A stretch of DNA of 43,546 bases from a virus, in the IMG/VR virus record IMGVR_UViG_3300035198_000124, positions 1 through 43,546 of that record; one strand, given 5' to 3'. A model generated the notes under the pieces. The model searched no databases. It was not told the DNA's origin and was given only the letters and a program-made list of their open reading frames with translations. The position numbers and the translations under genes were made by a program. Positions 6,801-22,646 of this stretch are shown in pieces. Position 1 is the stretch's first letter. The number at the start of each line of letters is the position of its first letter.

Positions 6801-7320
6801 CTGCACCGTGCCCTGCCGTGCCGCGAAAACCTTACCTTGCCTTGCCCTGCCGTGCCTTGCCGGACCCCGCCACGCCGTGCCAAGCCGCGCCACACCAAGC
6901 CGAGCCCTGCCGAGCCCAGAATGCCTTGCCTTGCCCTGCTCTGCCCTGCTAAGCCCGGCCATGCCATGCCGAGCCCAACCTCGCCAAACCTCGCCAGGCC
7001 GCACCCCGCCATACCACGCCCCGCCGGGCCTCGCCCCACCTTGCTGCACCGCACCCAGAAGACCTTGCCTCGCCGTGCCAGGCCAGGCCCCGCCCGACCG
7101 GACCAAACCGCACCAGACCCCACCCCACCGCGCCAAGCCTCGCCCTACCCAGCCTAGCCATGCCGCACCACGCCTGGCTGAACCGTGCCCAGAATACCTC
7201 GCCCTGCCGAGCCGAGCCGAGCCGTGTCGCGCCGAGCCTGACCATGCCAGGCCTCACCCGACCAGACCCGACCTAACCAGGCCCTGCTCAACCAAACCCG
7301 ACCCAACCAAACCCTGCCCT
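6801..7320. repeat. Degenerate pentanucleotide (CCNNG)n array, about 520 bp
   Basis: The + strand is a near-continuous run of 5-base units of the form CCNNG (CCTTG, CCGTG, CCCTG, CCGAG, CCACG...), with occasional units drifting to CCNNA or broken by AGAAnn. The + strand is C-rich and the leftward RNA would be G-rich, with GG recurring every five bases. Because units are five bases and stop codons are rare in this composition, long Pro/Ala/Arg-rich frames stay open on both strands; none has a convincing start site or natural composition, so the region is treated as non-coding. A motif CCCAGAA recurs at 6915, 7054 and 7188, showing a longer repeat of about 134-139 bp. Function unknown. Confidence 0.9.
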
Positions 7321-8737: not shown

Positions 8738-11086
8738 TCACACAGGACGTAAGCTTCCCCATGACTTCCCTACCGCAAACTCCGCCGGGATCACCAGCGC
8801 CCTGCCGTCAACTACAACGGGTTGTTCCATCTCTTCACGAATAATGTCGACCAACTCCATTTCCCGCCCTTCAGGTGCCTCCGCCACAATCGAGTCGTGC
8901 ACTTGCATCAGGAGAATGAAGTCAGTCTCCTTGATTCGCCAGTAAATTCGGAGCAGTGCAAGGTTCAGCATATCAGCGACCATGGACTGAGGAACATGTG
9001 CTATGGCGCGACGCACGAGACGTGAATCAAACCGTCCCAGAAACTGACGGTGTCTTCCTATCGGCGTGACCAGTTTCCTGGTCTTGCGGACTGCCTCCTC
9101 GACAGACTGCTGCCACTTCCGGATGTTCGGGAACTCCTGATAATACCGGCCAAGTGTCCGTTCCGCTTCCGCAAGCGTCAGCCCTGTGATTTCGGCAAAA
9201 GTCCTTGCACCCACTCCGTAGTTCCCACTATGAACACAGCGCTTGGCGATCTCGTAGAAGGTGTCCCCTTTTTGCACCTTTTCCTCCGGGACCCCGAAAA
9301 TGCGGGAAGCGACAAGCGCATGAATCTTGCGTCCTTCTTCGAAGTAACGAATCAAGATTTCCTCATTGGCAAGCCATGCAACAGCACGGGCCTCCGCCTG
9401 GCTGTAGTCGGCTTCCACGAGGACATATCCAGGATCCGCAATGAAGATGCCTCGCAGTGCCGCACCAACTTTCGCCTCTTGATGAGGCTTCGTAACGTGT
9501 TTTGTCGGAATGTTCTGGAGGTTTGCGCCGTATCCGTAGACGTCTTTAGACGACGAGATCCGTCCTGTCACCACGCCGCTGGAAGTGCTCCCCGCCTGGT
9601 TGTAGGAAGTGACAATCCTTCCCTTGAAAAGACGAATATCCAGATAAGTGGAGAGGATTTTTTGCACTTTGCGCAGCTCAATGACCTTTTCTGCTAACGG
9701 GAACCGGTAACGCTTCGCGATCCTGACCAAGGCCTCCTCGTCCAACGTTGGGCGGCCGGTGTGTCGGGAAATATGAGGACGTGCCTTGAGCGTTTCATAG
9801 AACAGCTTCCGCAACTGTTGTGGGGAATTCACGTTTATAGGACGCCCCGCCAGTTGGTTCAGTTCTTCCTGGAGCTGTTCTGCACGCGCCTTCAGCTCAG
9901 CTGTAAGTGCTCCTATTTTGCCCTCGTCCGCTAGGACACCACGTGTCCCCATGTCATGAAGCACCCGGATCAGTGGAATTTGGTAGGTCTCAATGAAGTC
10001 ACGAAGTCCCGTTTCATCAACCTCTTGTTGTTGGCGTTCCCAAATCTCGTACGTCACTGCACAATCTTTGCAATTGTACAGATACAACTGCTTTGCAGAG
10101 TCCTTCCCAGGAACCCATGTCCGTCCCTCCTCCTTGTAGAAGGGTTCCCGTGTGTAGACCGAAGTGTAGAAAGCAAGGGACTTAGGAAGTTCAGGATAGA
10201 GGCAGTGTCCCACAATCATTGTGTCCCACACGAGGCCTCGGAGAACTCCCGGTCCCCCGAGCACCCGCATCTCGAACGCGGCGTTGTGGCAGCATTTCGG
10301 CACTGTATCGTCCTGAAGCACCTCGTAGACCAGCTTCCAGACTTCAGCTTCTTCGAAGGCGGTTGGCCAGTAAGAACCGAATCCCGTGTCAAACGGAACA
10401 CAGATGGCGTTCACTGCCGACCAGGCAAAACCGATGCAGGCAATGTGCCCACGAAGGGTTTCTATGTCCACTACCACAGGGAGGTGCTCCTGCACAATGC
10501 AGCAAAGCGCTTCACGAACACGCTCGAATGTCGGCGTCGGGTTAAGAAAGCGTTGGGGCAACGAGATCACTGGGGTTTCTGACTCCACCTTGATGCGTGC
10601 GAAATCCTTCTTGAGGACGGGAAGCCATTCATACATTCGCAAAACAGCGGCAGGATGGTACGTCGGGATTGTCTTGATTCCCCCGGGGCCCTCCAGGATT
10701 GAGCCTCTCCACTTCGTGACTCCCTTCAGGCCGGTGAGTGCATAAAGCGCTGTGTCTCCTAGGGCGACAATGACGTTGGGACGCATACGCTCGAGCTTCT
10801 CACGAAGCTGGGGAAGGAACACGTAAGGATTGGAAAACCCCAATTGTGTAATGTGTTTCAAGTTGTTTCTAGGTGGACGGTAGGGAAACACATTGTCGAT
10901 GTAACACTCCGACCAGCGAATGCCAACAGCGCTCAGCACCCCGTTGAGAAGCCTCCCCGCACCGCCTACAAAAGGAGTGAGTGCTTTTTCTTCCTGAGCA
11001 CCAGGTGCCTCCCCAATGAGAGCAATTTTCGCGTCAGCGGGTCCTACACCCGGCACCCGTGGACCGTGCACTGTCTCACCAGTCAT
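8738..11086 (-). CDS. Family-A DNA polymerase with N-terminal uracil-DNA-glycosylase domain and 3'-5' exonuclease, 782 aa
   Basis: The start is ATG 11086, eight bases from AGGAGG; the in-frame GTG at 11095 overlaps that site and is rejected. Residues about 18-165 are a family-4/5-type UDG domain: IGEAPGAQEE (24-33), PFVGGAGRLL (38-47), TYHPAAVLR (142-150). The Cys residues that bind the iron-sulfur cluster in family 4 are not kept (NVFPYRPP where NVVKCRPP is typical). Residues about 200-350 are a DEDDy exonuclease: VDIET (206-210), CHNAAFE (266-272), YNCKD (337-341). Residues about 375-782 are the polymerase: TGRISSS, NLQNIPT, motif A EADYSQAEAR (558-567), motif B AKRCVHSGNYG, motif C MQVHDS (727-732), where HDE is more usual. 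The fusion would couple uracil recognition to replication. Confidence 0.92.
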   Translation of the reverse strand: MTGETVHGPRVPGVGPADAKIALIGEAPGAQEEKALTPFVGGAGRLLNGVLSAVGIRWSECYIDNVFPYRPPRNNLKHITQLGFSNPYVFLPQLREKLERMRPNVIVALGDTALYALTGLKGVTKWRGSILEGPGGIKTIPTYHPAAVLRMYEWLPVLKKDFARIKVESETPVISLPQRFLNPTPTFERVREALCCIVQEHLPVVVDIETLRGHIACIGFAWSAVNAICVPFDTGFGSYWPTAFEEAEVWKLVYEVLQDDTVPKCCHNAAFEMRVLGGPGVLRGLVWDTMIVGHCLYPELPKSLAFYTSVYTREPFYKEEGRTWVPGKDSAKQLYLYNCKDCAVTYEIWERQQQEVDETGLRDFIETYQIPLIRVLHDMGTRGVLADEGKIGALTAELKARAEQLQEELNQLAGRPINVNSPQQLRKLFYETLKARPHISRHTGRPTLDEEALVRIAKRYRFPLAEKVIELRKVQKILSTYLDIRLFKGRIVTSYNQAGSTSSGVVTGRISSSKDVYGYGANLQNIPTKHVTKPHQEAKVGAALRGIFIADPGYVLVEADYSQAEARAVAWLANEEILIRYFEEGRKIHALVASRIFGVPEEKVQKGDTFYEIAKRCVHSGNYGVGARTFAEITGLTLAEAERTLGRYYQEFPNIRKWQQSVEEAVRKTRKLVTPIGRHRQFLGRFDSRLVRRAIAHVPQSMVADMLNLALLRIYWRIKETDFILLMQVHDSIVAEAPEGREMELVDIIREEMEQPVVVDGRALVIPAEFAVGKSWGSLRPV

Positions 11087-11612
11087 CCCGGTCACCTCCT
11101 CGCTCCAAAGCCAGGAGCGCTTCCTTTTTCCTCCACAGCGCCAGCTCCGGATTTTCCTCCAGTGCGTCGGCTAACTGAAGGTTGATAGACACCGTTGTCG
11201 TCGACACGTTGAGCAGTCTCGCCACTGCACGCACCCGCGCCGAACGCTTCCTTTCCTTCCTCGCCTCCACGAGGCGTTTATATGCCAAGGCTTCCTCTGC
11301 CCACGTCAACGGCTTGTGGTGGAGGTTTTCCATCAACTCAACCTCGAGGGCTTTGCTCTCAGACACGTCTCCCAGGTCATGAGCAGGGATTGTTTCCCAC
11401 CCCAGCAGTCGGCATGCTTCATAGCGCCTGAATCCTGAGAGCAGCCGGTTCCCACTCACTACGATCGGGTGAAGAAGGCCGTGCTTCCGGATGTCTTCCG
11501 CCAGCTCTATTATGTCACCAGGGTCAATCTTGTGTCTGTGACGAGGACCGATCACGATCTCAGAGATCGGAATGTGCCGCACAGTGAAAAGGACAGTTCC
11601 GTACGCGTCCAT
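11076..11612 (-). CDS. ParB/Srx-fold nuclease-domain protein, 178 aa
   Basis: Residues about 12-90 carry the ParB N-terminal signature: HIPISEIVIGPRHR, then LAEDIRKHGLLHPIVVSG (the ExIxxxGLLxPIvV element), then LLSGFRRYEACRLLGW (GxRRxxAxxxLG). A second helical part (MENLHHKPLTWAEEALAYKR, then ARLLNVSTTTVSINLQLA) is the ParB-type central HTH. Family knowledge: ParB-type proteins bind palindromic sites and many have CTPase activity; phage copies can be nickase-like or regulators. No ParA partner was found. The inverted repeats at 21.2-21.6 kb are obvious candidate targets (inference). It overlaps the polymerase start by 11 nt. A GGAGAG site precedes the ATG. Confidence 0.85.
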   Translation of the reverse strand: MDAYGTVLFTVRHIPISEIVIGPRHRHKIDPGDIIELAEDIRKHGLLHPIVVSGNRLLSGFRRYEACRLLGWETIPAHDLGDVSESKALEVELMENLHHKPLTWAEEALAYKRLVEARKERKRSARVRAVARLLNVSTTTVSINLQLADALEENPELALWRKKEALLALERGGDRDDW

Positions 11613-14653: not shown

Positions 14654-15038
14654 GTTGCCACTTCCCCCGTGCAAGTTCTCTCTGCTTTGTTCGGTGGTGT
14701 TCCTTACGGTTTTTAAGCTCCCAATACAAAGCGACCATCCCAGGATCAACAGGATCTTTTTCAGCCTGCATCCCAACCAGATGCAAAATGTATTTAAGCA
14801 GTGCAGTCTCCTCGATCTGCCTCACGCGTTCCCGCGAGAAACCCCAAACTTGAGCGATTTCTTCAAGGGTCCATGGGTCCTGGATCAGAAACTGGCAACC
14901 TCGGTCACGCCGCAACGCGTCATTCGTCTGTCGACGGCGCCGCCCCAAGCGCACTGCCGGGTTCAGCAGATGCGCAGGACAGGCAAACTGTAAACAAACC
15001 TCACCTCGGCGAGGGACACAACTCGAGAACCGCGTCAC
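14511..15038 (-). CDS. Sigma-70 region-4-like HTH regulator, 175 aa
   Basis: GTG 15038 is chosen because AAGGAG precedes it by six bases. Residues about 62-97 read WTLEEIAQVWGFSRERVRQ then IEETALLKYILHLVG, a clear sigma region 4.2 helix-turn-helix. Upstream is a Cys-containing segment (VCLQFACPAHLLNP) and RRDRGCQFLIQDP, the arrangement seen in small phage 'sigma-like' regulators that carry only region 4. It lacks region 2, so it is unlikely to act as a complete sigma factor; a transcription regulator that contacts -35-like DNA is more likely. The last 50 codons are basic and overlap the next gene; they may be a by-product of the overlap. Confidence 0.75.
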   Translation of the reverse strand: MTRFSSCVPRRGEVCLQFACPAHLLNPAVRLGRRRRQTNDALRRDRGCQFLIQDPWTLEEIAQVWGFSRERVRQIEETALLKYILHLVGMQAEKDPVDPGMVALYWELKNRKEHHRTKQRELARGKWQHDQGRQRNRDADRTAHGSDGHAADSKGKSLDAAPFKGGRASDTGVST

Positions 15039-15279
15039 GGTAATCTCCTTTGCGCCAAGGAAGATAGACTGCCACCACTTCGTATTTCGCTGGGTCGAAC
15101 GTCTCCGGGTCGTCGTAAAAGAAAGCGTCTTCACCCTCACGCCATAACGAGTATTGGGGCGTCACGGTATCTCTGCGCTTCAAGATCCAGCACGCGACAC
15201 CTCGCGCAACGAAGTGGCTGAACCAACTCAGCAACTCCGTTGGCCTCTCGACTGAAACGCTGAACTTAAAGACGTTCAT
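15001..15279 (-). CDS. Hypothetical protein, 92 aa
   Basis: ATG 15279 lies 14 nt inside the upstream gene. The protein starts MNVFKFSVSVERPTELLSWF and contains an acidic-aromatic stretch (DAFFYDDPETFDPAKYEVVA) followed by VYLPWRKGDYRDAVLEL. It is soluble-looking, mixed alpha/beta. No family is recognised. It overlaps the sigma-like gene start by 38 nt, so the two are probably translationally coupled. Confidence 0.6.
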   Translation of the reverse strand: MNVFKFSVSVERPTELLSWFSHFVARGVACWILKRRDTVTPQYSLWREGEDAFFYDDPETFDPAKYEVVAVYLPWRKGDYRDAVLELCPSPR

Positions 15280-15499
15280 CGTCAGCCTCCCAGACAATGT
15301 AAACAGCTTCAGGGTCCACCGACGTCGCGAGGACGTACGGGGCATAGCCCGGGCTTTCCATCACGTTGCCGTACTTGCTGGAAACGAACCATCTCGGTAC
15401 GGGATGATCTGGAAAAGGGCGGGTGTAAAGGAAATATTCGCCCTGCGCGTTATCTACAAGACGGATACGCGTCCGGTTATAAGACACAGATATCCTCAT
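15266..15499 (-). CDS. Small MRI-type array protein, 77 aa
   Basis: Starts MRISVSYNRTRIRLVDNAQG; ATGA-type overlap with the upstream gene. Beta-rich (GEYFLYTRPFP ... RWFVSSKYGNVMES ... AVYIVWEADDE). It shares the MRI/MKI start, small size and strand-heavy pattern with its upstream neighbours, including a FVxxxGxV element in the middle (WFVSSKYGNVM versus GFVVEPDGKVV in the gene at 16740). A distant member of the array is plausible. Function unknown. Confidence 0.65.
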   Translation of the reverse strand: MRISVSYNRTRIRLVDNAQGEYFLYTRPFPDHPVPRWFVSSKYGNVMESPGYAPYVLATSVDPEAVYIVWEADDERL

Positions 15500-15831
15500 G
15501 ACAGGTCCTCCACTTCGCCGTCCTCCTGATCGTAAGCTTCCATACCTGGGGCATTCCAGTCTTCTTCAAACAACTTTAATCTATATCTTGTCTCCCTGGC
15601 TTGTTCAGTACTCAGCTCAGTTGTTTCCCTCTCGCACTCACATTCATCACGGACTATCACGGCACGATGAAGCAGTGCACTGCTATTGTGGCGAGGCACC
15701 CTCATCACCCTGCCGTACATGTTCACAGTGTAACGTGGAGCGGAAGAGCCACCTGTCACGAGAAGCCTTAGTAGGCCAGGAGCCAGTTCTTCGACACAAA
15801 CCGGGGAGTATCGTCCGAGATGAATGCGCAT
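15496..15831 (-). CDS. Small MRI-type array protein with acidic tail, 111 aa
   Basis: Starts MRIHLGRYSPVCVEELAPGL. The first 55 residues are strand-rich with YTVNMYGRVMRVP in the position of the FVVExxGKVxR element of the clearer array members. The second half is charged and helical (ECERETTELSTEQARETRYR) and ends acidic (DQEDGEVEDLS). The start overlaps the preceding stop by one base and the end overlaps the next gene by 4 nt. No family is recognised. Confidence 0.65.
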   Translation of the reverse strand: MRIHLGRYSPVCVEELAPGLLRLLVTGGSSAPRYTVNMYGRVMRVPRHNSSALLHRAVIVRDECECERETTELSTEQARETRYRLKLFEEDWNAPGMEAYDQEDGEVEDLS

Positions 15832-16046
15832 CAGCCCTCCTCACATATGTCGGAATCGTCAGCATCGATGGAAAGAGGCGCGAAGGCCCAAGCTTCCAGT
15901 GCCACATACTGGCCTAGATAGCGATCACCTTTCGCCCCGTTGGGCCAGTAGGTTGCAAACGGCCGATGCGCGGACCAGCGCACACGCAATGAAAGATATG
16001 AATCGCCGTTTACAATCCTGACGGGGCCTTGTCTGCTGATTTTCAT
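15831..16046 (-). CDS. Small MKI-type array protein, 71 aa
   Basis: Starts MKISRQGPVRIVNGDSYLSL, with a beta-rich body (LRVRWSAHRPFATYWPNGAK) and an acidic end (SIDADDSDICEEG). It contains a central Gly-Asp turn (AKGDRYLGQYVALEAWAF) comparable with TGKxxRxxxxxLDSY of the core members. It begins nine bases after the upstream gene. Function unknown. Confidence 0.65.
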   Translation of the reverse strand: MKISRQGPVRIVNGDSYLSLRVRWSAHRPFATYWPNGAKGDRYLGQYVALEAWAFAPLSIDADDSDICEEG

Positions 16047-16055
16047 TCTGCCACC

Positions 16056-16313
16056 TTATGAATCAACCTCGTCCTTCACCTCGACGAGCACCGAGTATGG
16101 CGACTCGGCGGCCGCCAGCAAGAGTCTCCGGGCGAGCCCCCTTGTGCCGGAACGGCACATCTGCCTGCCGCGGGCGTCCACCTGGCGGATTAGGCACTCG
16201 TCGGGGAGGTCAATGCTCAGGTGAGGCAGATGGATGCCCCTCACCATCGATACACGATAGTATCGATTCTCGATGCCTGGAGTGTCAAACAAGTCAACAA
16301 GACGGATCTTCAT
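16056..16313 (-). CDS. Small MKI-type array protein, 85 aa
   Basis: Starts MKIRLVDLFDTPGIENRYYR, similar to the first residues of the paralogue at 17244 (MKIHLLDPFG). ATGA overlap with the upstream gene. The middle is HLSIDLPDECLIRQVDARGR and the end is strand-like (SPYSVLVEVKDEVDS). Arg-rich helix GTRGLARRLLLAAAE lies between. Probably a divergent array member; no known family. Confidence 0.65.
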   Translation of the reverse strand: MKIRLVDLFDTPGIENRYYRVSMVRGIHLPHLSIDLPDECLIRQVDARGRQMCRSGTRGLARRLLLAAAESPYSVLVEVKDEVDS

Positions 16314-16522
16314 CCTGGCGCCCCCGAAATTGTGACGGTGTCGGAATCAACACCGACTCGAAGGTAATACACATCAGCCTCGAACACCCGACGATCTCCG
16401 GTTGCGTTAACTTCCGCCTCTGGCATGCGACTTCTTTTCGTGTAAATAAACAGCCAGGCGGACTCGTAGCCAAGCCTTACAGAGGGGCAGCTAACCGATT
16501 GCCTATCGGTAGTTATCTTCAC
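16310..16522 (-). CDS. Small MKI-type array protein, GTG start, 70 aa
   Basis: GTG 16522 gives the MKI start shared with neighbours (MKITTDRQSVSCPSV) and lies after AGGAGGAAGG; the upstream ATGs at 16546/16543 would overlap that ribosome site. The C-terminal half has ATGDRRVFEADVYYLRVGVD, matching the TGKxxR...LDSY...LRVGV signature of the core paralogues. It is therefore a divergent but convincing member of the array. Confidence 0.7.
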   Translation of the reverse strand: MKITTDRQSVSCPSVRLGYESAWLFIYTKRSRMPEAEVNATGDRRVFEADVYYLRVGVDSDTVTISGAPG

Positions 16523-16542: not shown

Positions 16543-16743
16543 TCACTCATTGGTGACTCCAACAGAGAGCTGTAAAGTTGCTCCAACGTAACTGTTCAGC
16601 ACTGGGAAGATACGGGAGATCTTCCCAGTTGGTTCCACGACAAAGCCAGGCCTGGCAGCCTGGCGCGCAACCTGCAAGACCGCCCTGCTCACAATAACAG
16701 CACTGCCGATATTATCGGCAGGCACTCTCTGGCGAACTCTCAT
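16543..16743 (-). CDS. Core paralogue A of the small-protein array, 66 aa
   Basis: Starts MRVRQRVPADNIGSAVIVSR and carries the full signature GFVVEPTGKISR, then LNSYVGATLQLSVGVTNE. It aligns across its whole length with the gene at 16740 (about half the residues similar by eye), so the two are duplicates. ATGA overlap with that gene. Short all-beta protein expected. Function unknown. Confidence 0.75.
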   Translation of the reverse strand: MRVRQRVPADNIGSAVIVSRAVLQVARQAARPGFVVEPTGKISRIFPVLNSYVGATLQLSVGVTNE

Positions 16744-16979
16744 GACTCCGCGCCCTCCCCCCTGTCTACAAGCGCACCAGGATTAGTGACTCCTACGCGG
16801 AGCTGAGCAGTTACCGCAGCAAGGTAACTGTCCAGGCGCGCTGAGGGAAAGTGAACGACTTTGCCGTCTGGTTCAACGACAAAGCCGCCCGCCGGAAGAC
16901 GGTTGGGAACTTGAAGGCTGACGCTGGTGACAGCGACAGTGCGGGCGGGCGTATTTATAAGGAGCTGGCGGATTTTCAT
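16740..16979 (-). CDS. Core paralogue B of the small-protein array, 79 aa
   Basis: Starts MKIRQLLINTPARTVAVTSV, then SLQVPNRLPAGGFVVEPDGK, then LDSYLAAVTAQLRVGVTNPG. It has the clearest form of the array signature and a short acidic extension (RGEGAES). Its ATG follows GAGGAGGCAGA and overlaps the stop of an 8-codon mini-ORF. Beta-rich; no known family. Confidence 0.75.
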   Translation of the reverse strand: MKIRQLLINTPARTVAVTSVSLQVPNRLPAGGFVVEPDGKVVHFPSARLDSYLAAVTAQLRVGVTNPGALVDRGEGAES

Positions 16980-17002
16980 TCTGCCTCCTCACCGACCTTC
17001 AT
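16976..17002 (-). other. 8-codon mini-ORF coupled on both sides
   Basis: ATG 17002 overlaps the stop of the 82-aa gene (ATGA), and its own TGA overlaps the ATG of paralogue B (ATGA). The peptide is MKVGEEAE. It begins like the array genes (MKV) and contains the GAGGAGG ribosome site of the next gene. It may keep ribosomes on the message between two genes or be the remnant of a deleted array member. Confidence 0.45.
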
Positions 17003-17247
17003 TTTTCCACCTCGGCGGTTTTCAATTCCCCTAGCCCGCCAACAATCCACACTGCGGTGTCGGGCATTTCATCGCACCTGACGCGTAATTTTAGCGTTCT
17101 CGACCGACCAGCCATATTACTCATCCTTCCCTTCGTGCTAACTTGCTTATTCGCACGAAGGGATCTACGCTCAAGCGTGAGACAGACCGCGGAAGAATCG
17201 CGGTCTACGCTGAGCAACGAGTGTAGGCCGTTCGTGCTGATCCTCAT
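16999..17247 (-). CDS. Small MRI-type array protein, 82 aa
   Basis: Starts MRISTNGLHSLLSVDRDSSA, ATGA overlap with the upstream paralogue. It has a basic middle (ERRSLRANKQVSTKGRMSNM) and a beta-rich second half (TLKLRVRCDEMPDTAVWIVG). It ends AEVEK, the same last residues and nearly the same DNA (GAGGTGGAAAAATGA) as the upstream gene at 17244, direct evidence of shared ancestry or a repeated coupling element. Confidence 0.65.
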   Translation of the reverse strand: MRISTNGLHSLLSVDRDSSAVCLTLERRSLRANKQVSTKGRMSNMAGRSRTLKLRVRCDEMPDTAVWIVGGLGELKTAEVEK

Positions 17248-17456
17248 TTTTCCACCTCGTCCGCGAGTCCGACACGCATCGCAAAGACCGCTGAAACATA
17301 TGCGTCCAGCGGCGCCAGTGCGAGACGTCTGACCTCACCGGTCGGCGCAACAATGGAACCATGCACGTTCCGGTTTCGGGTCGGGGTCTGAAGCCTTGCC
17401 TCCCCAACTACAACGCCACTGTTGCTGCCGAACGGGTCGAGCAGGTGAATCTTCAC
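17244..17456 (-). CDS. Core paralogue C of the small-protein array, GTG start, 70 aa
   Basis: GTG 17456 overlaps the TGA of the VWA gene (GTGA) and is preceded by GAGGAG. The sequence reads MKIHLLDPFGSNSGVVVGEA, then RLQTPTRNRN, then GSIVAPTGEVRRLALAPLDA, then AMRVGLADE, matching the array signature (LQxPxR, VxPxGxVxR, LDxYV, LRVGL). It sits directly downstream of the metallopeptidase/VWA gene, mirroring paralogue D directly upstream of it. Function unknown. Confidence 0.75.
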   Translation of the reverse strand: MKIHLLDPFGSNSGVVVGEARLQTPTRNRNVHGSIVAPTGEVRRLALAPLDAYVSAVFAMRVGLADEVEK

Positions 17457-18604
17457 TGTGACTTCTCCTCGGGCCAGGCCAAGGCCCGGCCGAAACTGGC
17501 AGGTCTGCGCCCACCTGGCGTGATGAGCCAGACCACCTCGACTCCGCCGATGGCATCGACAGAGTCGAAGAAATAGCCATCGGTCGCCACGATGACTTTG
17601 TCGAACCGACCAGCAGCGTGCTCTCGAACCGGCTGCCACGTGGTGCCGCCGCCGGCGCGCAACGGAGACACGCAATCCCAGTCGCGCACGCCATCGTCGA
17701 AGACGTAGACCTCGACACCGTCGCGGCGGAGACCGCGAGCAATCGCGGCGAGGTCTGACCAGTGACTACTGGTTGAACCGCTGACGTCTAGATACAGTCC
17801 GACGGACGGACGCGGCAGACGCGAAACACCGCGGAGAAGCGGAAGGCGTCCCTCCCAACGCCAGGAGCGCACGGGTTCTCTGCGCTTCGTGGACTTGGCC
17901 ACCTCAGCACGCAGATCAACTGCGAGACGCAGGGCGGCGCGTTTGTCAGGAGTCCAAACGGTAGGACCTTCGCCCTTGCCGGCCTGCCGCGGCTGAGGCC
18001 GGCGAGAGGCTGGGAAATCCTTGGCGGGATCAAGACCGTCGGCCTTGGCGGCCTTCTCGAGCTCGCCCTTCTCTCGGGCGTGATCGACCGGATCGCCGGA
18101 CGGGACGACATCGTTTTCGAGCGGCCGATCAGCATTTTCGGCGGTACCTTGCCCGGAACGATCGGAATCCGAATCCTGCGACGTGGATTGCGCAAGAGCT
18201 TGGGCAATGTGGTAGGCGGTGTACCACGTCACCGCCGGGTTCAGACCGGCTCGCTCACAGGTGTCTTCGTACCGCACGCCCGGGGGCAGCTCGCCGAGCG
18301 TGCGGTTGATCACGGCATCGGTGGCGACGTTCCACGTCTGGGGCGGAATCTGCCCGCTCTGCGCCAGCTCCAGGCCACGGGGGCAATCCCCACGCCAGAC
18401 GTGGGCGATTTCGTGGAGCAAGACACTTCGCCGCTGCTCCACGGTGAGGCCGGACCACCACTCCGGATTGATCCGGAGGGTATAAGTCCTGCCAAGCTCC
18501 ACCTGCGCGGTTTGGCAGTTGGTGGAGTCCCACGCAAGCCGTTGGAGTACCCAAGAGCGCGTGCTCTTGGGTAGCGGGAGCAATTGTCTGATGTCATCGC
18601 TCAT
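17453..18604 (-). CDS. DUF2201-type metallopeptidase-like / VWA protein, 383 aa
   Basis: The N-terminal half has RRSVLLHEIAHVWRGDCPRG (about residues 58-77), a zincin HExxH motif of the kind found in DUF2201-type proteins. A Pro/Asp-rich linker follows (about 145-215). The C-terminal half is a VWA domain with an intact MIDAS: LDVSGSTSS (D-x-S-x-S), GGGTTWQPV (Thr) and VIVATDGYF (Asp). Such proteins pair with MoxR AAA+ ATPases, and one lies two genes upstream. Known MoxR/VWA pairs act as chaperones that remodel or metallate target complexes; the virus ATV also encodes one. Both flanking genes are paralogous small proteins, which may be clients or regulators (inference). ATG 18604 overlaps paralogue D by 11 nt. 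Confidence 0.88.
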   Translation of the reverse strand: MSDDIRQLLPLPKSTRSWVLQRLAWDSTNCQTAQVELGRTYTLRINPEWWSGLTVEQRRSVLLHEIAHVWRGDCPRGLELAQSGQIPPQTWNVATDAVINRTLGELPPGVRYEDTCERAGLNPAVTWYTAYHIAQALAQSTSQDSDSDRSGQGTAENADRPLENDVVPSGDPVDHAREKGELEKAAKADGLDPAKDFPASRRPQPRQAGKGEGPTVWTPDKRAALRLAVDLRAEVAKSTKRREPVRSWRWEGRLPLLRGVSRLPRPSVGLYLDVSGSTSSHWSDLAAIARGLRRDGVEVYVFDDGVRDWDCVSPLRAGGGTTWQPVREHAAGRFDKVIVATDGYFFDSVDAIGGVEVVWLITPGGRRPASFGRALAWPEEKSQ

Positions 18605-18824
18605 TGCTGACTCCTACACGGAGACCGCAAAGCGTCGAAACATATGTATCCACCGGCCCTCGGCGGACAGACGCGGTCTCGCCGTTTGTTTCTACGACGA
18701 AACCGCCTTTATCGCGGTCGCGGGCGGGAACTTGGATACTCGTTTCGCCAATGAGCACGGCACCGGTGTGGGCAGGCACCTTCACTGTGCCGTAAATGAA
18801 ACCTTTGAGAAGCCGGATGTTCAT
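18594..18824 (-). CDS. Core paralogue D of the small-protein array, 76 aa
   Basis: Starts MNIRLLKGFIYGTVKVPAHT, then SIQVPARDRDKGGFVVETNG, then VDTYVSTLCGLRVGVSNER. It aligns with paralogues B and C over their full length. It is located between the MoxR ATPase and VWA genes and overlaps both by a few bases (ATGA with MoxR). The repeated placement of this family at each border of the MoxR/VWA pair suggests a functional link. Confidence 0.78.
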   Translation of the reverse strand: MNIRLLKGFIYGTVKVPAHTGAVLIGETSIQVPARDRDKGGFVVETNGETASVRRGPVDTYVSTLCGLRVGVSNER

Positions 18825-20002
18825 TCTGCTTCGTCCTCCGGAAAAGACTCCTTGACCGCGTCAATGAGCGGCCGCAGAGTATCCATGGTGTCTACTCGTG
18901 CGCCGCCATCGGCGGGTGCATCAGCGGAGACCGTTGGGGCTTTCCCTCTCTCGACCCACGCCCGCGCCACGCGACGCAGGGCAGTCTCGAGGAGGTCAGC
19001 TCCCTCCTCCTCCGACAAACCGTCGGGAATCTCAAGGGTTCCACCCGCGGCCTCTACCGCGGCGTGAAAGCTGGACAGGAACGACCGCATCGCGGCGGTC
19101 GCAGCGTCCGGGTCGAGCTCGACCAAGACGCGTTCAATGGCCGCGACAGTGGCGGGCCAGTCATGCTTGGCGCAGTCGATCAGGTGGGGCACGAGCTCCC
19201 CGGCTGGCGCAGCGGCAGCCCACTCCCGTAGACGGCCCTCGGCCGCGAGGCGGTCAAACGGGTCGTACAGATCGGACGACTTGACCTCATCCAGGAGTTC
19301 AGCCGCGAAGTGCGGCTCAAGGCAGCCGCGCAGGGTAGACAAGATCTCTTCGTCGGAGACGCCAGCAGTAAGCATCTCTCTGGCGAGATTAAGCGCGTAT
19401 TCGATGACGCGCGGGGAAGGTTTTGGCAAAATCGGAAGAACGGGGGTCTCGGTCTCGGGGAGGAATTTAAGGGAAAGACCGTAGCGGTCTCGCAAGTGAG
19501 ACCACGCCTCACCTGCCGTACACGGGATAAAAAGTAGACGGGCAGCGAGGGCTTCGCCCGTCTTGCTCGCAAGCCACACAGCCGGTTCGACCGGTTGCAT
19601 GGCCGCGACAATGACGCTGCCGGGATGGAGCGTCAGATTACGGACTCTGCGCTCCGCGAAGAGCGTCAAAAGCGCGGAGAGGGTTTCCTCTCGCGCTTTG
19701 TCCAGCTCATCGACCAAGAGCACCAAAGGCTCTTGGACTGCGCGGTGTAACTCCTCCCGGGGCAGCGGTTGGACTACCCACGTGCCATCTCCAGAGCGGA
19801 TAGCACGTGGGTAACCGAGTAAGTCCTCCGGGGTCTCCGTGCCTGGCAGGACACGGAGCACCGGGAGACCAAGGACCGCAGCGAGCTGAGCAACTCGCGA
19901 GGTTTTGCCAACCCCTGTCTCACCGATGAGACAGGGGATGAGCGATTGGACGCCCGCCGCGAGAATGCGGGCGTTGAGTGTCACAAGATCTCTCAGTTGC
20001 AT
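18821..20002 (-). CDS. MoxR-type AAA+ ATPase, 393 aa
   Basis: ATG 20002 follows GGGAGG by six bases; the longer frame to 20116 runs through untranslated leader. Walker A is IGETGVGKTS (about residues 27-36), Walker B is LVLLVDELDKA (about 92-102), sensor 1 is VIVAAMQPVE. The segment GTETPEDLLGYPRAI is the MoxR-typical loop after the first strand. The C-terminal 180 residues are helical and Ala/Glu-rich. MoxR ATPases work with VWA proteins to remodel substrates; the partner is at 17453. This is the start of a tightly coupled set with paralogue D and VWA. Confidence 0.9.
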   Translation of the reverse strand: MQLRDLVTLNARILAAGVQSLIPCLIGETGVGKTSRVAQLAAVLGLPVLRVLPGTETPEDLLGYPRAIRSGDGTWVVQPLPREELHRAVQEPLVLLVDELDKAREETLSALLTLFAERRVRNLTLHPGSVIVAAMQPVEPAVWLASKTGEALAARLLFIPCTAGEAWSHLRDRYGLSLKFLPETETPVLPILPKPSPRVIEYALNLAREMLTAGVSDEEILSTLRGCLEPHFAAELLDEVKSSDLYDPFDRLAAEGRLREWAAAAPAGELVPHLIDCAKHDWPATVAAIERVLVELDPDAATAAMRSFLSSFHAAVEAAGGTLEIPDGLSEEEGADLLETALRRVARAWVERGKAPTVSADAPADGGARVDTMDTLRPLIDAVKESFPEDEAE

Positions 20003-20112: not shown

Positions 20113-20508
20113 TCATATCGCCAGATACTCTCGGAACCGCACGAAGCGGAACCGCGATATCTTCGCGCCATCTGGTTGCTCCACCACCTCCCGCTCGGTG
20201 GTGGAGTAAACTGTACGAATGTCTCGAAGGTGCAGGAGCTTGTTGAGATAATCAACAAACCCCGCCTCACCCACGAGGTGCACGAAGCACTCCGTGCACC
20301 CCGTCTCCACGCGATGCTTGTCACGAGCGGAGACGATCTGTGCGAGCACCTGCCACGCTAACTGAGCCACCACGTACCCGGAGGCGGCCGGATCGACGAC
20401 CGGATGCGGTATATCGATGACGATACCGCATTCCGCAAGCTCCCGAGCAGCGTGGAACTGCTCGCGAGACCAGCCGGCAGACGGATGATTGGAGACGTTA
20501 ATTATCAT
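20113..20508 (-). CDS. Csx15/CARF-like small protein (CRISPR-associated-like family), 131 aa
   Basis: ATG 20508 follows GGGAGG by seven bases and overlaps the upstream gene (ATGA). The protein has MIINVSNHPSAGWSREQF (1-18), IDIPHPVVDP (31-40), FVHLVGE (75-81), YSTTER (101-106) and FRFVRFREY (120-128). From memory this matches a small Rossmann-like family often labelled CRISPR-associated, in the same style as Csx15/Csx16/Csx20 proteins (N-x-S-H-P start, D-x-P strand, middle VHLxGE strand). Some relatives cleave cyclic oligoadenylates. A phage copy could be an anti-defence ring nuclease or have an unrelated role; this is inference. It is an early gene right after the leftward promoter, the usual place for anti-defence genes. 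Confidence 0.65.
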   Translation of the reverse strand: MIINVSNHPSAGWSREQFHAARELAECGIVIDIPHPVVDPAASGYVVAQLAWQVLAQIVSARDKHRVETGCTECFVHLVGEAGFVDYLNKLLHLRDIRTVYSTTEREVVEQPDGAKISRFRFVRFREYLAI

Positions 20509-22493: not shown

Positions 22494-22646
22494 TGATCAG
22501 GATGATCAGGATGATCAGGTTGGTCAAATTGATCAATTTGTGCAAAGTGATCAAATTGATCAACTTGGTCAAAGTGGTCAAGGTGATCAGATTGATCAAA
22601 GCGGTCAGATTGATCGTGATGGTCAAGTTGATCGGATTGATCAGGA
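22494..22646. repeat. Tandem array of 17 nonamers (TGATCAnnn)
   Basis: Seventeen head-to-tail 9-bp units with no indels, consensus TGRTCARRN; eleven units start with TGATC and nine carry the full TGATCA palindrome. The array is rich in GATC sites. Both strands have open frames through it (repeating Asp-Gln or Leu-Ile/Asn patterns), but without plausible starts. It ends in a hairpin GGACCCC-AG-GGGGTCC (22644-22659). Iteron-like; possible origin or regulator-binding array. Confidence 0.85.

Follow-up and report, generated by a model that had tools for sequence, protein, structure and literature searches.

A phage MoxR ATPase and metallopeptidase-VWA gene pair interleaved with a small family of orphan paralogues

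Layout and setting of the locus

The window, by which we mean the whole stretch of DNA that was analysed, is a 43.5-kb IMG/VR virus record that we read as a bacterial virus (phage) contig. Terminase, portal and head proteins are carried on the plus strand. A minus-strand module, running from ~20.7 to 7.5 kb, contains small genes, a PD-(D/E)XK nuclease, a Sak4-like ATPase, a family-4 UDG/PolA fusion and a primase, and the MoxR/VWA locus lies near its start. The genes of the locus, in the order of the minus strand, are as follows.

20113-20508, minus strand: U1, 131 aa, Csx20-family ring-nuclease homologue, upstream of MoxR (PADLOC Csx20)
18821-20002, minus strand: MoxR/midasin-type AAA+ ATPase, 393 aa (Pfam AAA_5, phrog_1297, PDB Midasin)
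18594-18824, minus strand: D, 76 aa, orphan paralogue 1 (paralogous to C, A1 and A2)
17453-18604, minus strand: metallopeptidase-like (HEIAH) plus VWA/MIDAS protein, 383 aa (DUF2201_N, phrog_1314, AlphaFold2 model)
17244-17456, minus strand: C, 70 aa, orphan paralogue 2, GTG start (closest to D)
16999-17247, minus strand: B1, 82 aa, between C and A1, outside the family (no significant similarity)
16740-16979, minus strand: A1, 79 aa, paralogue 3 (family comparison)
16543-16743, minus strand: A2, 66 aa, paralogue 4 (closest to A1)
15001-16522, minus strand: A3-A8, six small genes outside the family (ORFs with short overlaps or gaps; family HMM not significant)

The order MoxR, D, VWA, C, with every gene overlapping the next, had been proposed in a sequence-only reading of this DNA and is borne out by the coordinates: the overlaps are 4 bp for MoxR/D, 11 bp for D/VWA and 4 bp for VWA/C. 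A purine-rich GGAG/GAGG-type motif is present upstream of each of these four starts. GC content by codon position, ribosome-binding-type motifs and the use of different codons by the paralogues at residues they share all fit real coding genes. The same reading placed MoxR directly after the promoter, but two genes, U2 and U1, come before it, and the region has no more promoter-like matches than shuffled sequence (3 versus 3.2).

The neighbour of MoxR, U1, matches PADLOC Csx20 along its full length (2e-28, residues 1-128) and NCBIfam NF040559 at 1.8e-6, which is below the cut-off of that model. Ring nucleases of the Csx20 type act on cyclic tetra-adenylate and have been found in only 4 of 28,114 phage genomes (PMC12409355). 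Its sequence similarity to this family makes U1 a candidate for countering type III CRISPR; a scan of the viral collection for relatives of U1 was empty.

Other features of the window lie away from the locus. Approximately 16 near-copies of a 9-base TGATCA-containing unit occur between divergent gene modules (22494-22640), a possible origin or regulatory region, and degenerate C-rich tandem repeats with periods of 15-94 occur between convergent modules (6806-7317). The DNA polymerase I with an N-terminal family-4 uracil-DNA-glycosylase domain (8738-11095, minus strand) belongs to a widespread arrangement, with 418 matching IMG/VR stretches.

The MoxR and VWA proteins and their relatives in other phages

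The MoxR protein matches Pfam AAA_5 (E = 1.2e-13) and the phrog_1297 ATPase family (3.7e-15), and the best PDB match of its family profile is Midasin (5e-28). Its Walker A (GETGVGKT) and Walker B (LLVDE) motifs are intact, and R155, the arginine finger, is kept in 25/25 aligned proteins. The sensor 1 position (residue 136) is Gln in the window and Asn in all 24 aligned phage relatives.

The partner protein matches DUF2201_N (3.4e-10), DUF2201 (1.3e-3, below its cut-off) and phrog_1314 (4.3e-31). The HEIAH motif and the MIDAS set DVSGS...T321...D342 are intact, so that the Walker and MIDAS motifs are indeed complete, as had been claimed. HExxH, D96 and the MIDAS Asp/Ser/Ser/Asp are present in 29/29 aligned VWA proteins and the MIDAS Thr in 28. 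An AlphaFold2 model (mean pLDDT 67.5) predicts two domains, with an N-terminal helical domain containing the HExxH helix joined by a low-confidence linker (150-222, 239-264) to a confident VWA domain that matches many VWA/I domains at Z scores of 10-11. Foldseek gave a single match below 1e-3 for the model, to the human MDN1-MIDAS/NLE1-UBL complex; third in rank, at E 0.02, was NorD of NorQD. The PHROG name of phrog_1314 is 'HNH endonuclease'; as its members here (window 17453-18604 and L107:4863-6002) carry HExxH and VWA/MIDAS, this suggests that the name is wrong.

The two genes thus have the features of a phage MoxR plus metallopeptidase-vWA pair, namely an AAA+ domain with Walker A and B motifs and an arginine finger, an HExxH N-domain and a complete MIDAS. 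They run in one direction, with only D between the MoxR end (18821) and the VWA start (18604). The same pair is found in Roseobacter phage RD-1410W1-01, where it is annotated as N4 gp24-like and gp25-like, in Shigella virus Moo19, in Pseudomonas phage LP14 and in Lactococcus phage KSY1, whose VWA partner (gp028) is the most distant among the named phage records. Scans with the window VWA or MoxR protein alone found no relative and a five-protein alignment was too diverse as a query, but a three-protein VWA alignment gave matches at 34 IMG/VR loci. MoxR was near VWA in 30 of these, and two of the four loci without MoxR are cut just after VWA. At one locus with a UDG-PolA polymerase like that of the window (L096), the pair overlaps with nothing between. 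Judged from sequence, the pair is conserved across many phages and is widespread, N4-like phages included. The window proteins are only ~15-27% identical to these relatives.

A published proposal for homologous phage pairs is a role in virion assembly and processing (PMC7824862), a virion-assembly role having been put forward both in jumbo phages and for the Acidianus two-tailed virus tail. Applied here, the pair would be a virion-assembly chaperone with proteolytic processing, and the small proteins would be irrelevant to it. However, the window pair shares its minus-strand replication module with the primase, polymerase and nuclease genes, and portal and head proteins are encoded separately on the plus strand. 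The pair of N4-like phages is found among RNAP2, nucleotide-metabolism and replication genes. This placement weakens the virion-assembly idea, which we consider rather improbable for this virus.

The small paralogues and the genes around the pair

The claim that D and C are paralogous held up. The two proteins are 38% identical over 53 aa (1.6e-12), with a Smith-Waterman z of 17 against shuffles, and A1 and A2 are 44% identical (9e-10). Leave-one-out HMMs recovered every omitted member at E values of 2e-10 to 3e-13, with D-C and A1-A2 as the nearest pairs. D, C, A1 and A2 are true paralogues, well beyond chance, and their conservation spans the whole length of the protein. The family has only these four members. 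We considered and rejected a single family of all small genes with an 'MKI' start: B1 and A3-A8 are not significant against the family HMM and have only the M[KR]I-like start in common with it, a start that most other small genes share. The bases after A2, ATGAGTGATGACA, resemble the start of the VWA gene. A relic of the VWA gene was rejected as their source; since the first codons of VWA overlap the last codons of D, the resemblance is better explained by a tail common to D and A2.

Searches for relatives of this family were negative. D had no match in Pfam, PHROGs, NCBIfam, PADLOC, the PDB, phages or plasmids, in searches whose sensitivity is limited for 70-aa proteins. Family patterns in IMG/VR and GTDB genomes and tblastn of the family in phages and plasmids were empty or at noise level, and when all ORFs of the VWA loci and of 80 UDG-PolA loci were screened with the four-member HMM, nothing but the four window genes rose above noise. 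A profile search of 50 whole records also found nothing, a weak result as it had no positive control. As searched, and with limited sensitivity for proteins of 70 aa, the family appears to have no detectable relative outside this virus.

The distribution of the family bears directly on the proposal that motor, adaptor and a small client or specificity subunit form a three-part machine. The expectation was that the small family would co-occur with MoxR/VWA in other genomes, and that relatives with the pair but never the small proteins would refute the idea. No member was found in any other MoxR/VWA phage locus examined. In 11 of 22 representative loci the two genes are immediate neighbours or overlap, in either order. 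In one more they are 308 bases apart, with no ORF listed in the interval, and in 10 they are separated by one to four other genes. None of these between-genes is of the D family; they encode a 172-aa phrog_14291 protein, a 403-407-aa protein and various small proteins, and two of the products look, by eye, like GIY-YIG homing endonucleases. As unrelated genes lie between the pair in 10/22 loci, a small gene in this position does not by itself point to a third subunit. At the genomic level, therefore, the relatives examined have MoxR/VWA and never the small proteins, which is the outcome named in advance as refuting. The motor and adaptor parts of the machine stand, as a conserved MoxR/VWA pair, but the small client or specificity subunit is unsupported; judged on co-occurrence, the three-part machine is not supported and is a minority hypothesis.

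The 403-407-aa protein belongs to no known family and lies between MoxR and VWA in several contigs (L107:3597-4820, L104:2684-3895); it is a better candidate than D or C for a conserved third component. Small paralogues of other families also occur upstream of the pair. L102:1-927 encodes a small zinc-ribbon-like family, unrelated to D/C, in four or more copies, and L112 and L110 have small paralogue groups of families other than D/C. Small paralogue pairs or arrays were present at 4/34 VWA loci versus 4/76, which is not a significant enrichment (Fisher p = 0.25).

It had also been claimed that each border of the pair carries a family member. In fact D and C flank the VWA gene, and the upstream neighbour of MoxR is the Csx20-like gene. 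This arrangement, in which the VWA gene is bordered on both sides by one family with overlaps of the translational-coupling type, counts against regarding the small proteins as bystanders, and as D and C are mutual closest relatives it could indicate a link to the VWA protein. D and C might then be dedicated clients or specificity subunits, with the MIDAS gripping an acidic residue of theirs in a lineage-specific three-part machine. Midasin, to which both MoxR and VWA point, uses its MIDAS to bind a small (UBL) domain, and D and C have four acidic positions in common (E27, E49, D59 and E75 in D numbering), of which E27 and E49 are not retained in A1/A2. The low identity of the pair to its relatives would also be consistent with a lineage that may have acquired its own partners. 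However, no acidic residue is invariant across the four proteins, A1 and A2 are located away from the pair, the family is missing from all other pair loci examined and the fold of D is not predicted (AlphaFold2 from the four-member alignment, pLDDT 44). We regard the client reading as unlikely, and a fuller version, in which these MIDAS-gripped subunits constitute an interchangeable, duplicating small-protein module of the machine, as likewise unlikely.

A third possibility is that the HExxH domain processes the small proteins, which would be precursors of peptides. A zincin motif adjoins a multicopy small family here, and small variable precursors with a separate metallopeptidase occur beside some vWA-MoxR conflict systems (PMC7159879). 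The full-length conservation of D/C/A1/A2, which is not confined to a C-terminal peptide, and the presence of the same HExxH protein in phages without the D/C family make this explanation very improbable.

Proposed role and comparison with known systems

We think it fairly probable that the locus holds a known phage chaperone/co-chaperone pair, set in an early-gene array with a locally duplicated orphan family whose members are not its subunits. The pair would be expressed from the leftward early/replication gene module, probably early. NorQ/NorD and midasin suggest, by analogy, how the pair might work: the VWA protein would engage a MoxR ring, presumably a hexamer, and hold a client through an acidic residue bound to its MIDAS metal. 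ATP hydrolysis would remodel that client, which the N-terminal zincin-like domain may dock or cut. D, C, A1 and A2 would have multiplied by local duplication inside the small early-gene array and are probably separate host-takeover proteins on a shared transcript. D and C could act as clients or adaptors, but nothing found supports this. Should they prove to be clients, they would offer a first clue to the target of the pair; otherwise, the locus is one more conserved phage pair in an early region of fast-changing small genes.

The combination had been thought undescribed. The pair itself is a member of a known, published phage kind (PMC7824862), and what is new is the small orphan family. Our literature search found no experimental function for a phage MoxR plus metallopeptidase-VWA pair. 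The pair described in group 2.2 jumbo phages (PMC7824862) is likewise a MoxR AAA+ ATPase with a vWA protein carrying an N-terminal metallopeptidase domain, whereas here the contig is 43.5 kb, the polymerase is of the UDG-PolA type, one small gene lies between the two and sensor 1 of MoxR is Gln. The N4 gp24/gp25-type pair of Schitoviridae (KU885989, MZ358387, MH356729) is, like that of the window, of the phrog_1297/phrog_1314 type with MoxR before VWA and has identical catalytic and MIDAS residues. Unlike the window it is without the D/C family; the pair is adjacent in two of the records, and an unrelated gene lies between in Litunavirus-like loci (L098, L012). In the ternary conflict systems of PMC7159879 a VMAP or inactive STAND protein is the third component; none was found beside the pair, and D, C, A1, A2 and U1 (66-131 aa) have no significant Pfam domain.

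Among cellular systems, NorQ/NorD (PMC9976466, PMC13036017) resembles the phage pair in combining a MoxR AAA+ protein with a partner made of an N-domain, a disordered linker and VWA/MIDAS. In NorQD a finger of the VWA domain sits in the MoxR pore, and the NorD MIDAS, although dispensable for NorQ binding, is required to activate nitric oxide reductase (PMC9976466); a twisting mechanism has been proposed (PMC13036017). NorD, however, is a 70-kDa protein serving nitric oxide reductase, and no such client was seen in the window; the N-domain of the phage partner, in turn, carries HExxH. Midasin (Rea1/MDN1) is the best match of both phage proteins, of the MoxR family in the PDB and of the VWA model in Foldseek, but it is a single giant eukaryotic chain acting in ribosome assembly, whereas the window encodes two separate phage proteins.
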